Source: Bacteroidales bacterium (GTDB lineage Bacteria > Bacteroidota > Bacteroidia > Bacteroidales > UBA932). From it: 64,000 nucleotides of DNA. The stretch is from assembly GCA_016288055.1 (NCBI GenBank), contig JAEEXZ010000002.1:20967-84966 (forward strand). Reading direction: 5' to 3'. Positions 30,592-59,530 of the stretch are shown piece after piece (position 1 is the stretch's first letter; each line of letters begins with the position of its first letter). Both the position numbers and the translations under genes were made by a program. The notes under the pieces are model-generated. The model searched no databases, was not told the origin of the DNA, and worked only from the letters and a program-made list of their open reading frames with translations.

Positions 30592-30644
30592 TGTCATCCT
30601 GAGCGCAGCGAAGGATCTATCCGCCGTACTTCATACCCCGCCGC
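30592..30644 (+). repeat. Dispersed 53-bp L repeat
   Basis: TGTCATCCTGAGCGCAGCGAAGGATCTATCCGCCGTACTTCATACCCCGCCGC; also at 45216, 47111 and (rc) 58208. Confidence 0.95.
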
Positions 30645-30646
30645 TA

Positions 30647-30864
30647 CTGTATGTACAGAAAAACGGCCTTCCAGAGCACTTTCGCTGTACATACAGATTC
30701 GCAATCGCCCACAGGAGCCACTTCCCGCTACTGTATGTACAGAAAAACGCCCTCCCAGAGCACTTTCGTTGTACATACAGAATCGCAATCGCCCCCAGGC
30801 GCCACTTCCCGCTGCTGTATGTACAGAAAATCGCCCTCCCAGAGCACTTTCGTTGTACATACAG
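30647..30864. repeat. Tandem array of three 50-nt palindrome-ended units (R1), period 84 bp
   Basis: CTGTATGTACAG...TGTACATACAG at 30647-30696, 30731-30780, 30815-30864, separated by conserved 34-nt spacers. Confidence 0.93.
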
Positions 30865-30910
30865 ATTTGCAGTCGCCCCCTTTGTCACAAGATTGGGTTG
30901 TTTGGAGGGG

Positions 30911-31148
30911 TTCGAGCACGAAAACGGCCTCTCTGGTGCTCGAGTTTAGTCACGGGTGCACCGGGACAAAGGAAAAGTGCACCCGTTGCGAGCGCAAAAA
31001 ATCGCAATCGGCTAAAATAATTGTCGATTTTTATCTGTTTTAGCCGATTCGTGAAGAAATCGCCCGAAAAAATTTATGTTTTGACCGATAGTATCGGGAA
31101 AATAGAGATATTATTGTAGTCCGGTTCTCCACGGTGGAGGACCGGACT
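30911..31148 (+). promoter_or_regulatory. Rpn leader: successive inverted repeats R2-R5 upstream of rpn1
   Basis: TTCGAGCAC..GTGCTCGAG; CGGGTGCAC..GTGCACCCG; AATCGGCTAAAA..TTTTAGCCGATT; CCGATAGTATCGG; AGTCCGGTTCTCCACGGTGGAGGACCGGACT. Confidence 0.85.
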
Positions 31149-31168
31149 AATTTTTAATTATTTATGCT

Positions 31169-32158
31169 ATGCAAGAAAACAAACTGACCAAAGAACAGCA
31201 GCAAAAATTCATGGCCTTCTTGAACGAGTATGAGAAGTGCCGGAACCTCTCTAAGGAAGAGAAAGAGAACCTAATTGTTCAGATCACATCCACCACGTAC
31301 ATTGACCTCCTCTGCGATTGGGCCTTCAAACATGTCTTCGGACACAACAAGGAAAACCTGATGCTACTCCTGAACGACTTCCTTCCGGAAGAGATCATTG
31401 ACATCGAGTACGATCCCAATGAGCGGGACATGCTCCGGGGTGATGACAAGCAGGTCATCATGGATGTCATCTGTCACACTAAGGACCGTAAGTTCATCGT
31501 GGAGATGCAGAAGTGCGGCAGCAACGAGTTCCGTAACCGCATGCTATACTACGGTGCAGCGTCGCTGGCCCGGCAGCTGAATCCGGGCGACAGCTATGAC
31601 AAGTTGGTTCCGGTGTACGTAATCTGCTTCATGAACTTCCGTCTGTTACATGACACAGACCAGTTGGTGTACCGTTTCCAGGTCCGTGAACAAGACTCCT
31701 GTGAACTCTATGGTCAGCAGCTATCCATCTACCTGTGCGAACTGCCCAGATGGGTCAAACCACTGGAGGAAGCGAAGACTCCGATTGAGGAATGGTTTGA
31801 CATTTTGCAGAATATGAGTAACTTTGCAGAGAAACCAGCCACCATCAGCAAACGTTACGATTCCATTTTCGATGCTTGTCAGCGTGGCCGGTTACAAGTC
31901 AAAGAACTGGAACAATACTTTCGCGCCATGATTACAGAACGAGAAGAAAAAGGCATCGCCGCCTTCTACAAGGAAGAAGGTCTCCGTGAAGGCTTCGACC
32001 TCGGTAAGGCCGATGGCTTGGCCGAAGGTAAAGCCGAAGGTAAGGCAGAAGGTAAGGCAGAAGTAGCCAGGGCATTGTTGAAAGATGGAATGACGGCAGA
32101 GAAGGTCATGGCTTATACTGGCTTGTCAAAAGAAGAGATTGAGCACTTGCGTCAATAA
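31169..32158 (+). CDS. Rpn-family recombination-promoting nuclease/putative transposase (rpn1)
   Basis: PD-(D/E)XK-like VIMDVICHTKDRKFIVEMQKCG; C-terminal EGKA repeats; near-identical to rpn3 (58345-59370). Confidence 0.85.
   Translation: MQENKLTKEQQQKFMAFLNEYEKCRNLSKEEKENLIVQITSTTYIDLLCDWAFKHVFGHNKENLMLLLNDFLPEEIIDIEYDPNERDMLRGDDKQVIMDVICHTKDRKFIVEMQKCGSNEFRNRMLYYGAASLARQLNPGDSYDKLVPVYVICFMNFRLLHDTDQLVYRFQVREQDSCELYGQQLSIYLCELPRWVKPLEEAKTPIEEWFDILQNMSNFAEKPATISKRYDSIFDACQRGRLQVKELEQYFRAMITEREEKGIAAFYKEEGLREGFDLGKADGLAEGKAEGKAEGKAEVARALLKDGMTAEKVMAYTGLSKEEIEHLRQ
31928..32158 (+). CDS. Candidate intragenic RpnS-like product of rpn1
   Basis: In-frame internal ATG (AMITEREEKG) at codon 254, the same ATG that starts the duplicated downstream ORF. 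Confidence 0.45.
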   Translation: MITEREEKGIAAFYKEEGLREGFDLGKADGLAEGKAEGKAEGKAEVARALLKDGMTAEKVMAYTGLSKEEIEHLRQ

Positions 32159-32168
32159 CTTTCGCGCC

Positions 32169-32375
32169 ATGATTACAGAACGAGAAGAAAAAGGCATCGC
32201 CGCCTTCTACAAGGAAGAAGGCCTCCGTGAAGGCTTCGACCTCGGTAAGGCCGACGGTTTGGCCGAAGGTAAAGCAGAAGTAGCCAGGGCATTGTTGAAA
32301 GATGGAATGACGGCAGAGAAGGTCATGGCTTATACTGGCTTGTCCAAGGAGGAGATTAACGGTCTGTCCCACTAG
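32169..32375 (+). CDS. Free-standing tandem duplicate of the rpn1 C-terminal segment (RpnS-like)
   Basis: MITEREEKGIAAFYKEEGLREGFDLGKADGLAEGKAEVARALLKDGMTAEKVMAYTGLSKEEINGLSH; starts 10 nt after rpn1 TAA. Confidence 0.75.
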   Translation: MITEREEKGIAAFYKEEGLREGFDLGKADGLAEGKAEVARALLKDGMTAEKVMAYTGLSKEEINGLSH

Positions 32376-45215: not shown

Positions 45216-45688
45216 TGTCATCCTGAGCGCAGCGAAGGATCTATCCGCCGTACTTCATACCCCGCCGCCGCTGTATGTACAGAAAATCGGCCTCTCAGAG
45301 CACTTTCGCTGTACATACAGATGCGCAATCGCCCTCTGGCGGCACTTCCCGCAACTGTATGTACAGAAAAACGGCCATCCAGAGCACTTTCGTTGTACAT
45401 ACAGAATTGCAATCGCCCTCTTTGTCGCAAGATTGGGTTGTTTGGGTGCCTTCGAGCACGAAACACCCCCTTCTGGTGCTCGAGTTCAGGTACGGGTGCA
45501 CCGGGGCAAGGGAAAAGTGCACCCGTCGCGAGCGCGAAAAATCGCAATCGGCTAAAAAAAATGACGATTTTTATCTGTTTTAGCCGATTCGTGAAGAAAT
45601 CGACCGAAAAAATTTATGTTTTGACCGATAGTATCGGGAAAATAGACATATTATTGTAGTCCGGTTCTCCAGGGTGGAGGACCGGACT
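45216..45688 (+). promoter_or_regulatory. Rpn leader module of rpn2: L repeat, two R1 units (45271-45320, 45355-45404), R2-R5
   Basis: Colinear with 30592-31148; final hairpin AGTCCGGTTCTCCAGGGTGGAGGACCGGACT at 45658-45688. Confidence 0.88.
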
Positions 45689-45709
45689 AATTTTTAACCA
45701 TCATAACTT

Positions 45710-46633
45710 ATGACAAAGCCTTTGGCACCTGGCGGGAAAGGGAGGTATGCATTCCTGCTGTTTGACTCCACGATGAAAGTCGTCATTTTCAACCCCGAGA
45801 ACGAGAGACTCCTGATTCAGATCCTCGAGCTGCTCATTCCGGGGAAGCACATTGCCGGTATCACATTCATGGACAAAGAGAAACACGGTTTGGTGATTTC
45901 CGAAAAAGTGGCTACCTTTGACATGTTGTGTAAAGATGCAGATACCGGCGAAGAGTTCCTGGTAGAAGTGCAGAATGCGCCGCAGAACAACTTCCAAGAC
46001 CGTGTTCTGTCGTATTCCACCTACCCTATTAGGGAACAAATGGCACGAAGGATCAGCCGCATCCGCGACGGAGAGAAGTTGGACCGGATGGACTACACTT
46101 TAAGGCCGATATACGTCCTGAGCCTTGTGAACTTCGCGCTGGAGCATGAATCGGCCGAAGCCCTGGAGGAGAACTACATCTCCCGCTATGAGCTGAGAAA
46201 CCGCCACAACGCGGAGCTCATGACCCGGAGCCTGAACTTCGTGTTCGTGGAGATGGGCCGAATGAAACTGGGCCCCGAAGACGGTGACAAGTGCAACACT
46301 TTGCTGGAAAAATTCATCTTTTCACTGAAGCACATGCATGAGCTGGACAAGTGCCCGGACAACTTCAAGGAGGACCTGCTGAAAGACCTCTACCGCGCCA
46401 CGGAACTGGCCACCATGCCCATAGAGACAAGAGAATATTACGACCAGAATATGAGAACCGAATTAGACATCATCGCCCAGAAAGACTATGCCGTCAAACA
46501 AGGCCGCGCCGAAGGCGAAGCTAAGGGGCGGGCTGAAGTTGCCAAGGCCATGCTGAAGAACGGTTTGTCCGTAGACATGGTCATGTCGTGTACTGGTCTG
46601 TCGAAGAAAGAAGTTGAGCATCTTGCCCAATAA
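45710..46633 (+). CDS. Divergent Rpn-family nuclease/putative transposase (rpn2)
   Basis: CKDADTGEEFLVEVQNAPQNNFQDRVLSYS (PD-(D/E)XK-like) and RPIYVLSLVNF. Confidence 0.82.
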   Translation: MTKPLAPGGKGRYAFLLFDSTMKVVIFNPENERLLIQILELLIPGKHIAGITFMDKEKHGLVISEKVATFDMLCKDADTGEEFLVEVQNAPQNNFQDRVLSYSTYPIREQMARRISRIRDGEKLDRMDYTLRPIYVLSLVNFALEHESAEALEENYISRYELRNRHNAELMTRSLNFVFVEMGRMKLGPEDGDKCNTLLEKFIFSLKHMHELDKCPDNFKEDLLKDLYRATELATMPIETREYYDQNMRTELDIIAQKDYAVKQGRAEGEAKGRAEVAKAMLKNGLSVDMVMSCTGLSKKEVEHLAQ

Positions 46634-46642
46634 CTGGTCACC

Positions 46643-46873
46643 ATGCCCATAGAGACGAGAGAATATTACGACCAGAATATGAGAACCGAATTAGACATCA
46701 TCGCCCAGAAAGACTACGCCGTCAAACAAGGCCGCGCCGAAGGCGAAGCCAAAGGTCGTGCCGAAGGCAAGGCGGAAGTTGCCAAGGCCATGCTGAAGAA
46801 CGGTTTGTCCGTAGACATGGTCATGTCGTGTACTGGTCTGTCCAAGAAAGAAGTTGAGGAATTGACTGTTTAG
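46643..46873 (+). CDS. Free-standing tandem duplicate of the rpn2 C-terminal segment (RpnS-like)
   Basis: MPIETREYYDQNMRTELDIIAQKDYAVKQGRAEGEAKGRAEGKAEVAKAMLKNGLSVDMVMSCTGLSKKEVEELTV; starts 9 nt after rpn2 TAA; matches internal in-frame ATG 46415. Confidence 0.75.
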   Translation: MPIETREYYDQNMRTELDIIAQKDYAVKQGRAEGEAKGRAEGKAEVAKAMLKNGLSVDMVMSCTGLSKKEVEELTV

Positions 46874-47110: not shown

Positions 47111-47215
47111 TGTCATCCTGAGCGCAGCGAAGGATCTATCCGCCGTACTTCATACCCCGCCGCTGCTGTATGTACAGAAAAACTGCCTCCCAGAGCACTT
47201 TCGGTGTACATACAG
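47111..47215 (+). repeat. L repeat plus a single R1 palindrome unit (47166-47215)
   Basis: Same L+R1 order as at 30592 and 45216. Confidence 0.92.
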
Positions 47216-47285
47216 ATTCGCAATCGCCTACTTTATCGCAAGATTGGGTCGTTTGGGTGCCTTCGAGCACGAAACAGGCCCTTCT

Positions 47286-47420
47286 GGTGCTCGAGTGGGT
47301 GCAAAGGTGCTTGAAGTGATGCAAAGGAGCTCGAGGGGGTGCAAAGGAGCTCGAGGGGGTGGCAAAGGTGCTCGAGGTGGCGCAAAGGTGCTCGAGTGGG
47401 TGCAAAGGTGCATGAAGTGG
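47286..47420. repeat. Tandem ~20-21-bp repeat GGTGCTCGAGTGGGTGCAAA
   Basis: About seven imperfect copies. Confidence 0.9.
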
Positions 47421-47594
47421 GGCCTGGGCGCTTCAGGGACTAGGTTTTGGGGATGAGACACAGCCGCGAAGGGGCCCCGCGCCAGAGGGAAACTTTACGA
47501 TTTTTGACAAAAAATTTGCATTTGTATTTTTTAGTTCTTATGTTTGCAAAAATATTCGTTCGTTTATTTGAACAGTATTGAAGGCTATTAGCCA

Positions 47595-57158: not shown

Positions 57159-57611
57159 ATGAACAGATTCATTTATCTCATACTGCTACTGGCGACCTGT
57201 ACTTGCCGAAACTCCGCGCTCACGCCCGCCGAATACTATAATCTGGGCCGATACGCCCGTCTGGACGGAGACTGGTCGGCCGCCGTCGGGTACTTTGAGA
57301 AGGCGCTGGATGCGGCGGAATGGGCTGGTGACGACTACTACCGGGGCTACGCATGCCAGCAGCTTGCCGCCATGTGGATCCTGGCCGGGGAAAAAGCAAT
57401 TGCTTTGTCTTACTCCATAACGGCGGTTGCTGCCCTTGAGGCCTGCGGCGAGACTGCCGGAGCCTTCCTCTCCCAGCAGATTATCAAGGATTGCGAGGCG
57501 TCACCCGTACAAAAGGCCGCGGAGGTGAAGCCAGCGGTAGAGGGTTGTGCGACTGCAGCCGATGTCGCGCGCAATGGCCGCCACGGGCCGATGGGAATTC
57601 AACAGCAGTAG
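57159..57611 (+). pseudogene. 3'-truncated TPR-like lipoprotein gene
   Basis: Paralogy to 33235-32513 stops after ETAGAFLS (about 57475); the ORF tail is antisense to the recombinase C-terminus. Confidence 0.65.
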
Positions 57612-58106
57612 AATGACGTCCCTGTGCCGGTCAAGTTTTTTCATGACGGTTGTACTGCCCTTCGGCCTGCCCAGGGCTACGCCCTCGGCTTTCTTGCGAG
57701 CCAGCGCTTCGCGGGTTCGGATGGAGATAAGCTGACGCTCTATCTCGGCCGCAAGCCCGAACGTAAATGCCAGCACCTTTGACTGGATATCCTCCCCCAG
57801 ACGAAATCTTTCCTTGACGGTCCACACTCGACATTCCTTCTTGAGACAGATGTTCAGGATGTTCATGATCATGAACAGGCTTCGGCCCAGACGGGAGAGC
57901 TCGGCACAAATGATGACATCTCCCTTTCGGACTTGCTTCAGAAGCTCTCCCAGTTTACGTTCTGTTGTTTCCAGTGTCCCGGAAACTGTTTCCTGAATCC
58001 AGACATCGACGTGCAAGTTCTCACTCCGGCAATAATTAATGATTTCGAAACGCTGATTCTCCAGCGTCTGACGGTCTGTGGAGACACGGATATAAGCATA
58101 AGTCAT
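57501..58106 (-). CDS. Serine recombinase (resolvase/invertase family)
   Basis: MTYAYIRVSTDRQTLENQR, ICAELSRLGRS, GRPKGST, C-terminal HTH VAAIARDIGCSRTTLYRWL. Confidence 0.92.
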   Translation of the reverse strand: MTYAYIRVSTDRQTLENQRFEIINYCRSENLHVDVWIQETVSGTLETTERKLGELLKQVRKGDVIICAELSRLGRSLFMIMNILNICLKKECRVWTVKERFRLGEDIQSKVLAFTFGLAAEIERQLISIRTREALARKKAEGVALGRPKGSTTVMKKLDRHRDVILLLLNSHRPVAAIARDIGCSRTTLYRWLHLRGLLYG

Positions 58107-58207
58107 AACGGTTAACAAATAGTTTACCCTTATGTAAACAAATAGCCTGCTTAAAGGTGGTGACTTGTCCTGACCACCCACTCGTGAATCAGAGGGGACC
58201 ATGCAAT

Positions 58208-58260
58208 GCGGCGGGGTATGAAGTACGGCGGATAGATCCTTCGCTTCGCTCAGGATGACA
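58208..58260 (-). repeat. L repeat, inverted copy
   Basis: Reverse complement of the 53-bp L repeat (one variant base in GAGCGAAGCG). Confidence 0.93.
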
Positions 58261-58274
58261 ATGAGTATAAAATA

Positions 58275-58296
58275 ACTCCGCCGGGATGGGCGGAGC
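58275..58296 (-). terminator. Candidate terminator after rpn3
   Basis: Minus-strand GCTCCGCCCATCCCGGCGGAGT followed by TATTTTA. Confidence 0.6.
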
Positions 58297-58309
58297 AATT
58301 AATGATAGA

Positions 58310-58344: not shown

Positions 58345-59370
58345 TTACTGATTCAAGGCTTCGATTTCGTTCTTTGAGAGGCCGGTATATGCCATGACCT
58401 TCTCTACCGTCATTCCATCTTTCAACAAAGCCTTGGCTACTTCGGCCTTACCTTCTGCCTTACCTTCTGCCTTACCTTCTGCTTTACCTTCGGCCAAACC
58501 GTCGGCCTTGCCAAGATCGAAACCTTCGGCCTTACCGAGGTCGAAGCCTTCACGAAGGCCTTCTTCCTTGTAGAAGGCGGCGATGCCTTTTTCTTCTCGT
58601 TCTGTAATCATGGCGCGAAAGTATTGTTCCAGTTCTTTGACTTGTAACCGGCCACGCTGACAGGCGGCGAAAATCGAATCGTAACGTTTGCTGATGGTGG
58701 CTGGTTTCTCTGCAAAGTTACTCATATTCTGCAAAATGTCAAACCATTCCTCAATCGGAGTCTTCGCTTCCTCCAGTGGTTTGACCCATCTGGGCAGTTC
58801 GCACAGGTAGATGGATAGCTGCTGACCATAGAGTTCACCGGAGTCTTGTTCACGGACCTGAAAACGATACACCAGTTGGTCCGTGTCATGCAATAGGCGG
58901 AAATTCATGAAACAGATAACGTAAACCGGAACCAACTTGTCATAGTTATCACCCGGATTCAACTGCCGGGCCAATGACGCTGCTCCGTAGTAAAGCATAC
59001 GGTTACGGAACTCGTTGCTGCCGCACTTCTGCATCTCCACGATGAACTTACGGTCCTTAGTGTGACAGATGACATCCATGATGACCTGCTTGTCGTCACC
59101 CCGGAGCATGTCCCTCTCGTTGGGATCATACTCGATGTCGATAATCTCTTCCGGTAAGAAGTCATTCAAGAGCAGCATCAGATTATCCTTGTTGTGGCCG
59201 AAGACATGTTTGAAGGCCCAATCGCAGAGGAGGTCGATGTACGTGGTGGATGTGATCTGTACGATCAGGTTTTCCTTCTCTTCTTTCGAGAGGTTCCGGC
59301 ACTTCTCGTACTCGTTCAAGAAGGCCATGAATTTTTGCTGCTGTTCTTTGGTCAGTTTGTTTTCTTGCAT
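58345..59370 (-). CDS. Rpn-family nuclease/putative transposase (rpn3)
   Basis: Near-identical to rpn1 except for an expanded EGKA/EGFDLGKA repeat tract; no downstream duplicate. Confidence 0.85.
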   Translation of the reverse strand: MQENKLTKEQQQKFMAFLNEYEKCRNLSKEEKENLIVQITSTTYIDLLCDWAFKHVFGHNKDNLMLLLNDFLPEEIIDIEYDPNERDMLRGDDKQVIMDVICHTKDRKFIVEMQKCGSNEFRNRMLYYGAASLARQLNPGDNYDKLVPVYVICFMNFRLLHDTDQLVYRFQVREQDSGELYGQQLSIYLCELPRWVKPLEEAKTPIEEWFDILQNMSNFAEKPATISKRYDSIFAACQRGRLQVKELEQYFRAMITEREEKGIAAFYKEEGLREGFDLGKAEGFDLGKADGLAEGKAEGKAEGKAEGKAEVAKALLKDGMTVEKVMAYTGLSKNEIEALNQ

Positions 59371-59390
59371 AGCATAAATAATTAAAAATT

Positions 59391-59421
59391 AGTCCGGTCC
59401 TCCACCGTGGAGAACCGGACT
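59391..59421 (-). promoter_or_regulatory. Leader hairpin R5 of rpn3
   Basis: Minus-strand AGTCCGGTTCTCCACGGTGGAGGACCGGACT followed by AATTTTTAATT; identical to the rpn1 hairpin. Confidence 0.88.
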
Positions 59422-59530
59422 ACAAGTATATGCGAAAATCCCCGAAGAATTGCAATCAAAACAGACAATAATTCGGTACAAACATGCTACAATCGGCTAA
59501 AACATAAAAAGTTATCAACAACCAGGCATT

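Follow-up and report, generated by a model that had tools for sequence, protein, structure and literature searches.

In pneumococcus, ComX regulates rpn-like (pseudo)genes alongside radC, dprA and ssbB (PMC6560143), and the LexA motifs described in Bacteroidota, GGA-N5-TCC and CTAA-N5-TTAG, are palindromes of 11-13 bp (PMC8565304). Transformation of Riemerella anatipestifer needs ComEC, DprA, ComF, RecA and several DUF proteins (PMC8459023), indicating that the phylum can transform, and for Rpn nucleases the release of their activity has been termed a key unresolved issue (PMC10327210). Our search for a competence regulon in Bacteroidota, or for an operator like the one proposed below, covered open-access PMC text, with most subscription papers and non-PMC preprints outside its scope, and found none.

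We analyzed a stretch of 64,000 nucleotides (the window) that carries three rpn genes (Table 1). PF12784 matches all three, which places them among the PDDEXK_2 nucleases, and TIGR01784 matches rpn2 as well as rpn1. Those relatives of rpn1 that bear names come from Bacteroidales metagenome assemblies, most of which name ruminants as their source. PADLOC returned a single weak match and nothing else, and an Rfam scan of the whole window gave no family at gathering score, so no known RNA family. We propose, with a probability of about 0.7, that the R4 palindrome upstream of rpn1 is an operator of a competence-type DNA-processing regulon that includes recruited rpn nucleases, and that the adjoining R5 palindrome forms a 5'-UTR hairpin.

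An earlier note on this DNA had described the same ordered series of inverted repeats upstream of rpn1 and rpn2, and we found all of the named palindromes there. It was also correct that rpn3 keeps R5 and one arm of R4, and that the leaders (about 90-93% identical) are better conserved than the coding regions, the Rpn1 and Rpn2 proteins being about 28% identical. Counting perfect inverted repeats (minimum arm 9, maximum loop 30), we obtained 6 in the rpn1 leader (leader 1) and 5 in the rpn2 leader (leader 2), as compared to means of 0.06 and 0.055 and a maximum of 1 each in 200 dinucleotide-preserving shuffles. The palindromes are thus real and not the product of chance. Rather than a single functional unit, the leader is a mosaic of a distal part made of repeat litter and a proximal promoter module. 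The suggestion that the leader is likely functional is supported for R4, which recurs before dprA, radC, ssb and rpn in many species, and for R5, whose hairpin recurs in rpn genes.

Table 1. Window, rpn genes, leader elements and exact TGTTTTAGCCGAT sites of the source genome (window positions unless a contig is named)
Feature	Position	Strand	Description
Window	G000:C63:20967-84966		2.05-Mb genome on 90 contigs
Module A (GTCATCCTGAGCGCAGCGAAGGATCT...)	30592..30643	+	dispersed repeat, not rpn-specific
Module B (R1 array)	30641..30892	+	three 84-bp units, each CTGTATGTACAG..CTGTACATACAG
R1 units of rpn1 leader	30647-30696, 30731-30780, 30815-30864		84-bp period
Module C palindrome	30911..30944	.	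TTCGAGCAC..GTGCTCGAG; dispersed
Module D palindrome	30953..30985	.	CGGGTGCAC..GTGCACCCG
R4 of rpn1	31006..31049	.	AATCGGCTAAAA/TTTTAGCCGATT; half-site CGGCTAAAAC in inverted arrangement; proposed operator
Extra inverted half-site	31077..31089	-	ATCGGTCAAAACA; overlaps CCGATAGTATCGG palindrome
CCGATAGTATCGG palindrome	31085-31097
Predicted -7 element	31109..31116	+	TATTATTG; 7 of 8 to TAnnTTTG; same position in rpn2 and L095
R5 hairpin of rpn1	31117..31149	+	TAGTCCGGTTCTCCA / TGGAGGACCGGACTA, then AT-rich stretch and ATG
rpn1	31169..32158	+	PD-(D/E)XK nuclease (PDDEXK_2, Rpn family); PF12784 E 2.3e-37; TIGR01784 E 9.8e-31
rpn1 tail, stand-alone copy	32169..32375	+	RpnS-like ORF, 68 aa
R4 of rpn2	45546..45589	.
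R5 of rpn2	45657..45689	+
rpn2	45710..46633	+	PF12784 E 9.5e-33
rpn2 tail, stand-alone copy	46643..46873	+	RpnS-like ORF, 76 aa
rpn3	58345..59370	-	protein about 93-97% identical to Rpn1
R5 of rpn3	59390..59422	-
Remaining R4 half-site of rpn3	59492..59504 (C63:80458-80470)	-	TGTTTTAGCCGAT
TGTTTTAGCCGAT site	contig C1		DUF4493/DUF6359 lipoprotein
TGTTTTAGCCGAT site	contig C11		dprA
TGTTTTAGCCGAT site	contig C20		near R1 array, no clear partner gene
TGTTTTAGCCGAT site	contig C28		Y1_Tnp transposase (HUH)
TGTTTTAGCCGAT site	contig C59		another lipoprotein
TGTTTTAGCCGAT sites	contig C63		rpn1, rpn2, rpn3
TGTTTTAGCCGAT site	contig C82 (L234)		ssb divergent from zinc-finger protein

R4 recurs well beyond the window. 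The pattern AATCGNNNRAAAN{15,36}TTTYNNNCGATT, derived from sequences upstream of rpn1 relatives, matched 114 sites (the sum of the listed per-genome counts) in 33 of 400 genomes of the genus, compared to 3 sites in 3 genomes for the reversed pattern. Clustering of the proteins downstream of 70 of these sites, examined among the matches listed, placed 66 before recurring families, the other four being unassigned or chance-like. The targets are a lipoprotein family with a CxxPLF motif (15 sites), dprA (13), radC (13, in other genomes), rpn (7), DUF4493/DUF6359 lipoproteins (2), ssb (1), a comF-like gene (1) and HUH/transposase-like genes (14, in two families of 7 and 6 plus L200; the L160 type barely passes the Y1_Tnp cut-off, the L170 type has no Pfam match and is so classed from a reading of its sequence, and L200 was assigned by eye). 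Pfam and NCBIfam confirmed the representatives as RadC, DprA, SSB, Y1_Tnp, serine resolvase and DUF4493/DUF6359, and the ComF representative has a domain match under the curated cut-off. Two names used among these loci, HicAB for L166 and IspE for a divergent gene, are ones we presume.

Within the source genome, the 13-mer TGTTTTAGCCGAT occurs at 9 exact sites, 8 of them with a target gene, and allowing up to one mismatch yields 25 sites against 8 for the reversed control. The element stands before ssb both here and in a second genome (G413, locus L201), each with a Pfam SSB match. At both loci (L234, 917-1995, and L201) a small zinc-finger protein, with weak resemblance to DUF2116, is encoded divergently from ssb with the putative operator between the two genes; it is possibly a member of the regulon or its regulator.

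Family searches in the 33 element-bearing genomes, counting the strict or direct-repeat form, set the limits of this association. The element was present at 21 of 30 dprA loci (19 strict; own dprA included), a fraction inflated because the genomes were chosen for having at least one site, and at 0 of 30 loci for error-prone polymerases (PF00817) and 0 of 30 for comEC; reversed sequences gave 0. The contrast of dprA with the other two remains marked. At comEC, which is present in 31 of the 33 genomes, loose patterns gave only scattered half-site-like matches and no whole element; comEC thus lies outside the regulon, which is not a full textbook competence regulon. Among rpn genes, the element was present at 12 of 29 rpn1-like loci (one of the 12, L120, looks like chance; the reversed control gave 0) compared to 0 of 30 general PF12784 loci. 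Given this, and with only 33 of 400 genomes matching the strict pattern, the link between element and rpn is confined to rpn2 and the rpn1-like branch.

These counts bear directly on an alternative in which R4 serves an SOS regulon, or one for general DNA damage or phage stress, as its operator, with radC and ssb among the targets for that reason. Both are SOS genes in some Bacteroidota (PMC8565304), Rpn overexpression provokes an SOS response in E. coli (PMC10327210), and the lack of the element at comEC loci would be in keeping with such a role. However, an element that is present at dprA loci and was found at none of the error-prone polymerase loci points to DNA processing and speaks against the SOS regulon known from Bacteroidota. 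The LexA palindromes of Bacteroidota are also far shorter than the 44-55 bp multi-half-site elements found here (PMC8565304). By eye, R4, whose arms lie 20 bases apart, matches neither LexA palindrome, and the half-site used elsewhere (CGTAAGAAAC) lacks CTAA. We consider an SOS-type operator unlikely. That rpn-like genes are regulated by ComX (PMC6560143) lends independent support to a link with competence. Together our results give good support to R4 as a shared operator, and the regulon it would define likely serves DNA uptake.

The architecture of R4 offers clues to what might bind it. In the rpn1 leader the extra half-site lies 41 bp from an R4 half-site (CGGCTAAAAC to CGGTCAAAAC on the minus strand), and the module shared by rpn1 and rpn2, including the 41-bp spacing, is repeated before the DUF4493/DUF6359 lipoprotein gene on contig C1. 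Many copies consist of half-sites CGGCTAAAAC or CGTAAGAAAC in direct repeat about 20-21 bp apart together with a further inverted one, a spacing of two helical turns that would probably place a regulator multimer on one face of the DNA. We considered a LytTR-type protein as a candidate regulator on account of the direct-repeat spacing of about 21 bp. The -7 box and both R4 and R5 are retained in the closest rpn1 relative (L095, equivalent to L138; about 81% identical), where the R5 stem has wobble changes; other rpn1 relatives have AATCG...CGATT inverted repeats whose inner letters differ, often around GAAACAACAC. Half-site spelling differs between genomes and is largely common within one (CGGCTAAAAC in the source genome, CGTAAGAAAC in G326), from which we infer one trans-acting protein per genome whose specificity has changed. 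G413 is an exception: the half-site of its rpn copy differs from that of its other copies, which conflicts with a single regulator in each genome unless the rpn gene in question is a recent arrival.

The Bacteroidota -7 promoter consensus is TAnnTTTG, and R5 starts right after the predicted -7 box, which would place it at the extreme 5' end of the transcript. A search with the leader located R5 in the source genome only at the three rpn genes, and L095/L138, the closest relative of rpn1 and from a different genome, has the R4-R5 pair as well. Two other assignments were set aside: R5 as a GTAG-tagged REP, since the predicted promoter here ends in GTAG and that search located R5 only at the three rpn genes, and an R5-like match at L051, which sits within a coding gene and is due to chance.

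Stable folds at this position are frequent in rpn genes. We took genes whose ATG is preceded, at a distance of 22-80 bases, by an exact TAnnTTTG box. Of these, 16 of 30 rpn genes, which are related to each other, had a 5'-UTR fold z below -2 against single-nucleotide shuffles, compared to 11 of 96 other genes sharing their loci (Fisher p 6e-6; Mann-Whitney p 1.5e-7). Having TATTATTG as their -7 box, rpn1-3 themselves fall outside this test. Loci L138-L145, which we took to be those of the L095-L105 range based on equal identity and upstream letters, were omitted from listings of rpn1 relatives, and leaving L138-L155 and repeated entries out of the hairpin test reduced 140 items to 126 unique ones. 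The hairpins of different rpn genes vary in sequence, so that what is conserved seems to be their structure. The simplest reading is that R5 probably acts on mRNA stability or translation.

The earlier note had offered an attenuator as one possible function; in this case the R5 hairpin and the TAATTTTTAA that follows it would end transcription before the ATG unless relieved. This would apply to R5 alone and could coexist with an operator at R4, and it draws on the stable hairpin followed by a T run and on the comparable hairpins of 16 of the 30 rpn genes tested. However, the predicted -7 box ends just before R5, leaving no leader upstream of the hairpin, and the Rfam scan of the window matched no family. 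A 5'-UTR hairpin fits better, and we regard early termination at R5 as improbable.

Upstream of R4 the picture is different. The distal palindromes (30592-30985) are best read as interspersed genomic repeats that accumulated upstream of rpn1. Modules A-D are dispersed extragenic palindromes, resembling REP repeats: the first 27-53 bases of module A match many places in the source genome and its relatives, the R1 unit (three copies upstream of rpn1, two upstream of rpn2) has 12 exact copies on 6 contigs (reversed control 0), the module C motif GAGCAC..GTGCTC has 17 sites in the source genome (reversed control 1), and a palindrome like module D is found on contig C28, close to a transposase-like gene. 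Searching the source genome with the leader gave 37 matches, mostly to single modules, and 25 of 30 matching loci have no rpn relative (the exceptions being L001, L002, L005, L008 and L009). Across 61 genomes, 18 gave some match, the source genome included; outside it every match was to a short stretch, nearly always the first 27-48 bases, and no complete leader was found. That leader sequence might occur genome-wide without rpn genes had been named in advance as evidence against a function, and this is what we see for the distal modules. It is true of R4 in another sense, given its non-rpn targets, which change the meaning of R4 and do not remove it. The proposal of a mobility end would suit the distal modules, with their resemblance to dispersed repeats; R4 and R5 show no such behavior.

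We made several further observations on these repeats. At L021 a Y1-like ORF (455-1369; Pfam E 0.038, below cut-off) lies beside two module C palindromes (1501-1583), an arrangement common among transposases that mobilize repeats. Module C palindromes with a 51-bp period lie in frame within ORFs at L014 (about 1399-1584; the ORF is nucleotidyltransferase-like) and L015 (about 1447-1545), resembling palindromic elements inserted into genes. A third partial leader (plus strand), made of modules A-C and with no rpn gene downstream, occupies 47111-47296 of the window and is followed at 47297-47430 by a degenerate series of GTGCTCGAG-like units that stops before a secreted-protein-like gene.

Dispersal of this sort raises the question of whether the entire leader is non-functional litter copied with rpn by segmental duplication or recombination, its conservation reflecting recency. 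Besides the dispersed modules and the third leader copy, the three genes themselves attest to reassortment of leader and coding parts: rpn1 and rpn2 share the leader and little coding identity, whereas rpn1 and rpn3 have coding sequence and R5 in common and not the rest of the leader. Against this stand the recurrence of R4 before specific unrelated genes in other species, the 5' hairpins of differing sequence in other rpn genes, and the pattern of conservation between leaders 1 and 2, where palindrome arms, picked by eye in leader 1 and hence somewhat circular as a class, are identical in 150 of 151 columns and the remaining columns in 243 of 294 (Fisher p 3.6e-9). For R4 a leader-wide litter origin is already largely refuted, and for the leader in its entirety we consider it very unlikely.

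The rpn genes have companions of their own. The RpnS-like ORFs lie directly 3' of rpn1 and rpn2, with none at rpn3. In E. coli, RpnS can likewise be a gene of its own downstream (PMC10327210), so these ORFs would be of a known kind. Such stand-alone tails are rare, occurring at 1 of the 25 rpn1-like loci whose downstream DNA was long enough and at 0 of 29 general rpn loci. A serine recombinase gene (57504-58298, minus strand) follows rpn3, and in two other genomes (loci L178 and L216) rpn and a serine recombinase gene point away from each other with an R4-type element between them. Binding or cutting of the palindromes by Rpn or the RpnS antitoxin, for autoregulation or targeted recombination, would draw on the HTH-like character of RpnS and the frequency of HTH motifs in antitoxins (PMC10327210) and on the reassorted leaders, but is highly improbable given that R4 also stands before dprA, radC and lipoprotein genes that have no rpn beside them and is absent from all 30 general rpn loci.

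Returning to R4 as the operator of a DNA-processing regulon, we envisage the gene-proximal leader (31006-31168) as a promoter module of R4, a predicted promoter and R5 just before the ATG. R4 and the extra half-site would be bound, just upstream of the promoter, by a single trans-acting regulator acting as a multimer, which would also control dprA, ssb, radC, several lipoproteins, HUH transposase-like genes and, once, a comF-like gene. In a DNA-uptake or DNA-processing state, a presumed competence signal would lead the regulator to activate dprA and ssb and, along with them, rpn1, rpn2 and probably rpn3. The Rpn nuclease would then act while foreign single-stranded DNA undergoes processing, and the R5 hairpin at the transcript 5' end would probably tune mRNA stability or translation.

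The sharing of R4 with genes that handle incoming DNA suggests that rumen bacteria may turn on rpn nucleases together with their DNA-uptake machinery. We give somewhat less than even odds to the broader proposal, drawn from sequence comparison, of an undescribed DNA-uptake regulon of rumen Bacteroidales that would unite dprA, ssb, radC and surface lipoproteins with Rpn nucleases, REP-type transposases and serine recombinases. If true, the entry of foreign DNA would be exactly the moment at which these cells raise their own capacity for recombination and rearrangement, and the role of Rpn proteins would extend beyond that of anti-phage toxins to that of competence effectors. An element linking dprA, ssb, radC and surface lipoproteins provides a handle for finding the regulator and the inducing condition, and offers a native context for Rpn nucleases. 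In addition, the change of half-sites between species would be a natural system for studying regulator-operator co-evolution.

For Riemerella anatipestifer the accessible text describes no operator, and its DUF5689/DUF5017 protein is not of the DUF4493/DUF6359 family (PMC8459023). As in REP systems with REP-associated tyrosine transposases, modules A-D are dispersed extragenic palindromes and transposase-like HUH genes are among the proposed regulon targets, although L021 alone has a repeat beside a transposase-like ORF, whose domain match is weak (PMC3733652). The E. coli RpnL/RpnS toxin-antitoxin systems likewise have an Rpn nuclease, a repeat-rich C-terminal tail and sometimes a stand-alone tail gene downstream, while the accessible text describes for them neither a competence-type operator nor a multi-palindrome leader (PMC10327210). 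The Bacteroidota SOS regulon, governed by a non-canonical LexA, belongs to the same phylum and has radC and ssb as possible targets, but uses short palindromes with N5 spacers and has error-prone polymerases as core targets (PMC8565304). The late competence regulon of Streptococcus pneumoniae differs in its ComX-binding box, in place of the multi-half-site R4 element, and in including comEC, yet like the regulon proposed here it co-regulates radC, dprA and ssbB with rpn-like recombination-promoting nuclease/transposase (pseudo)genes (PMC6560143).
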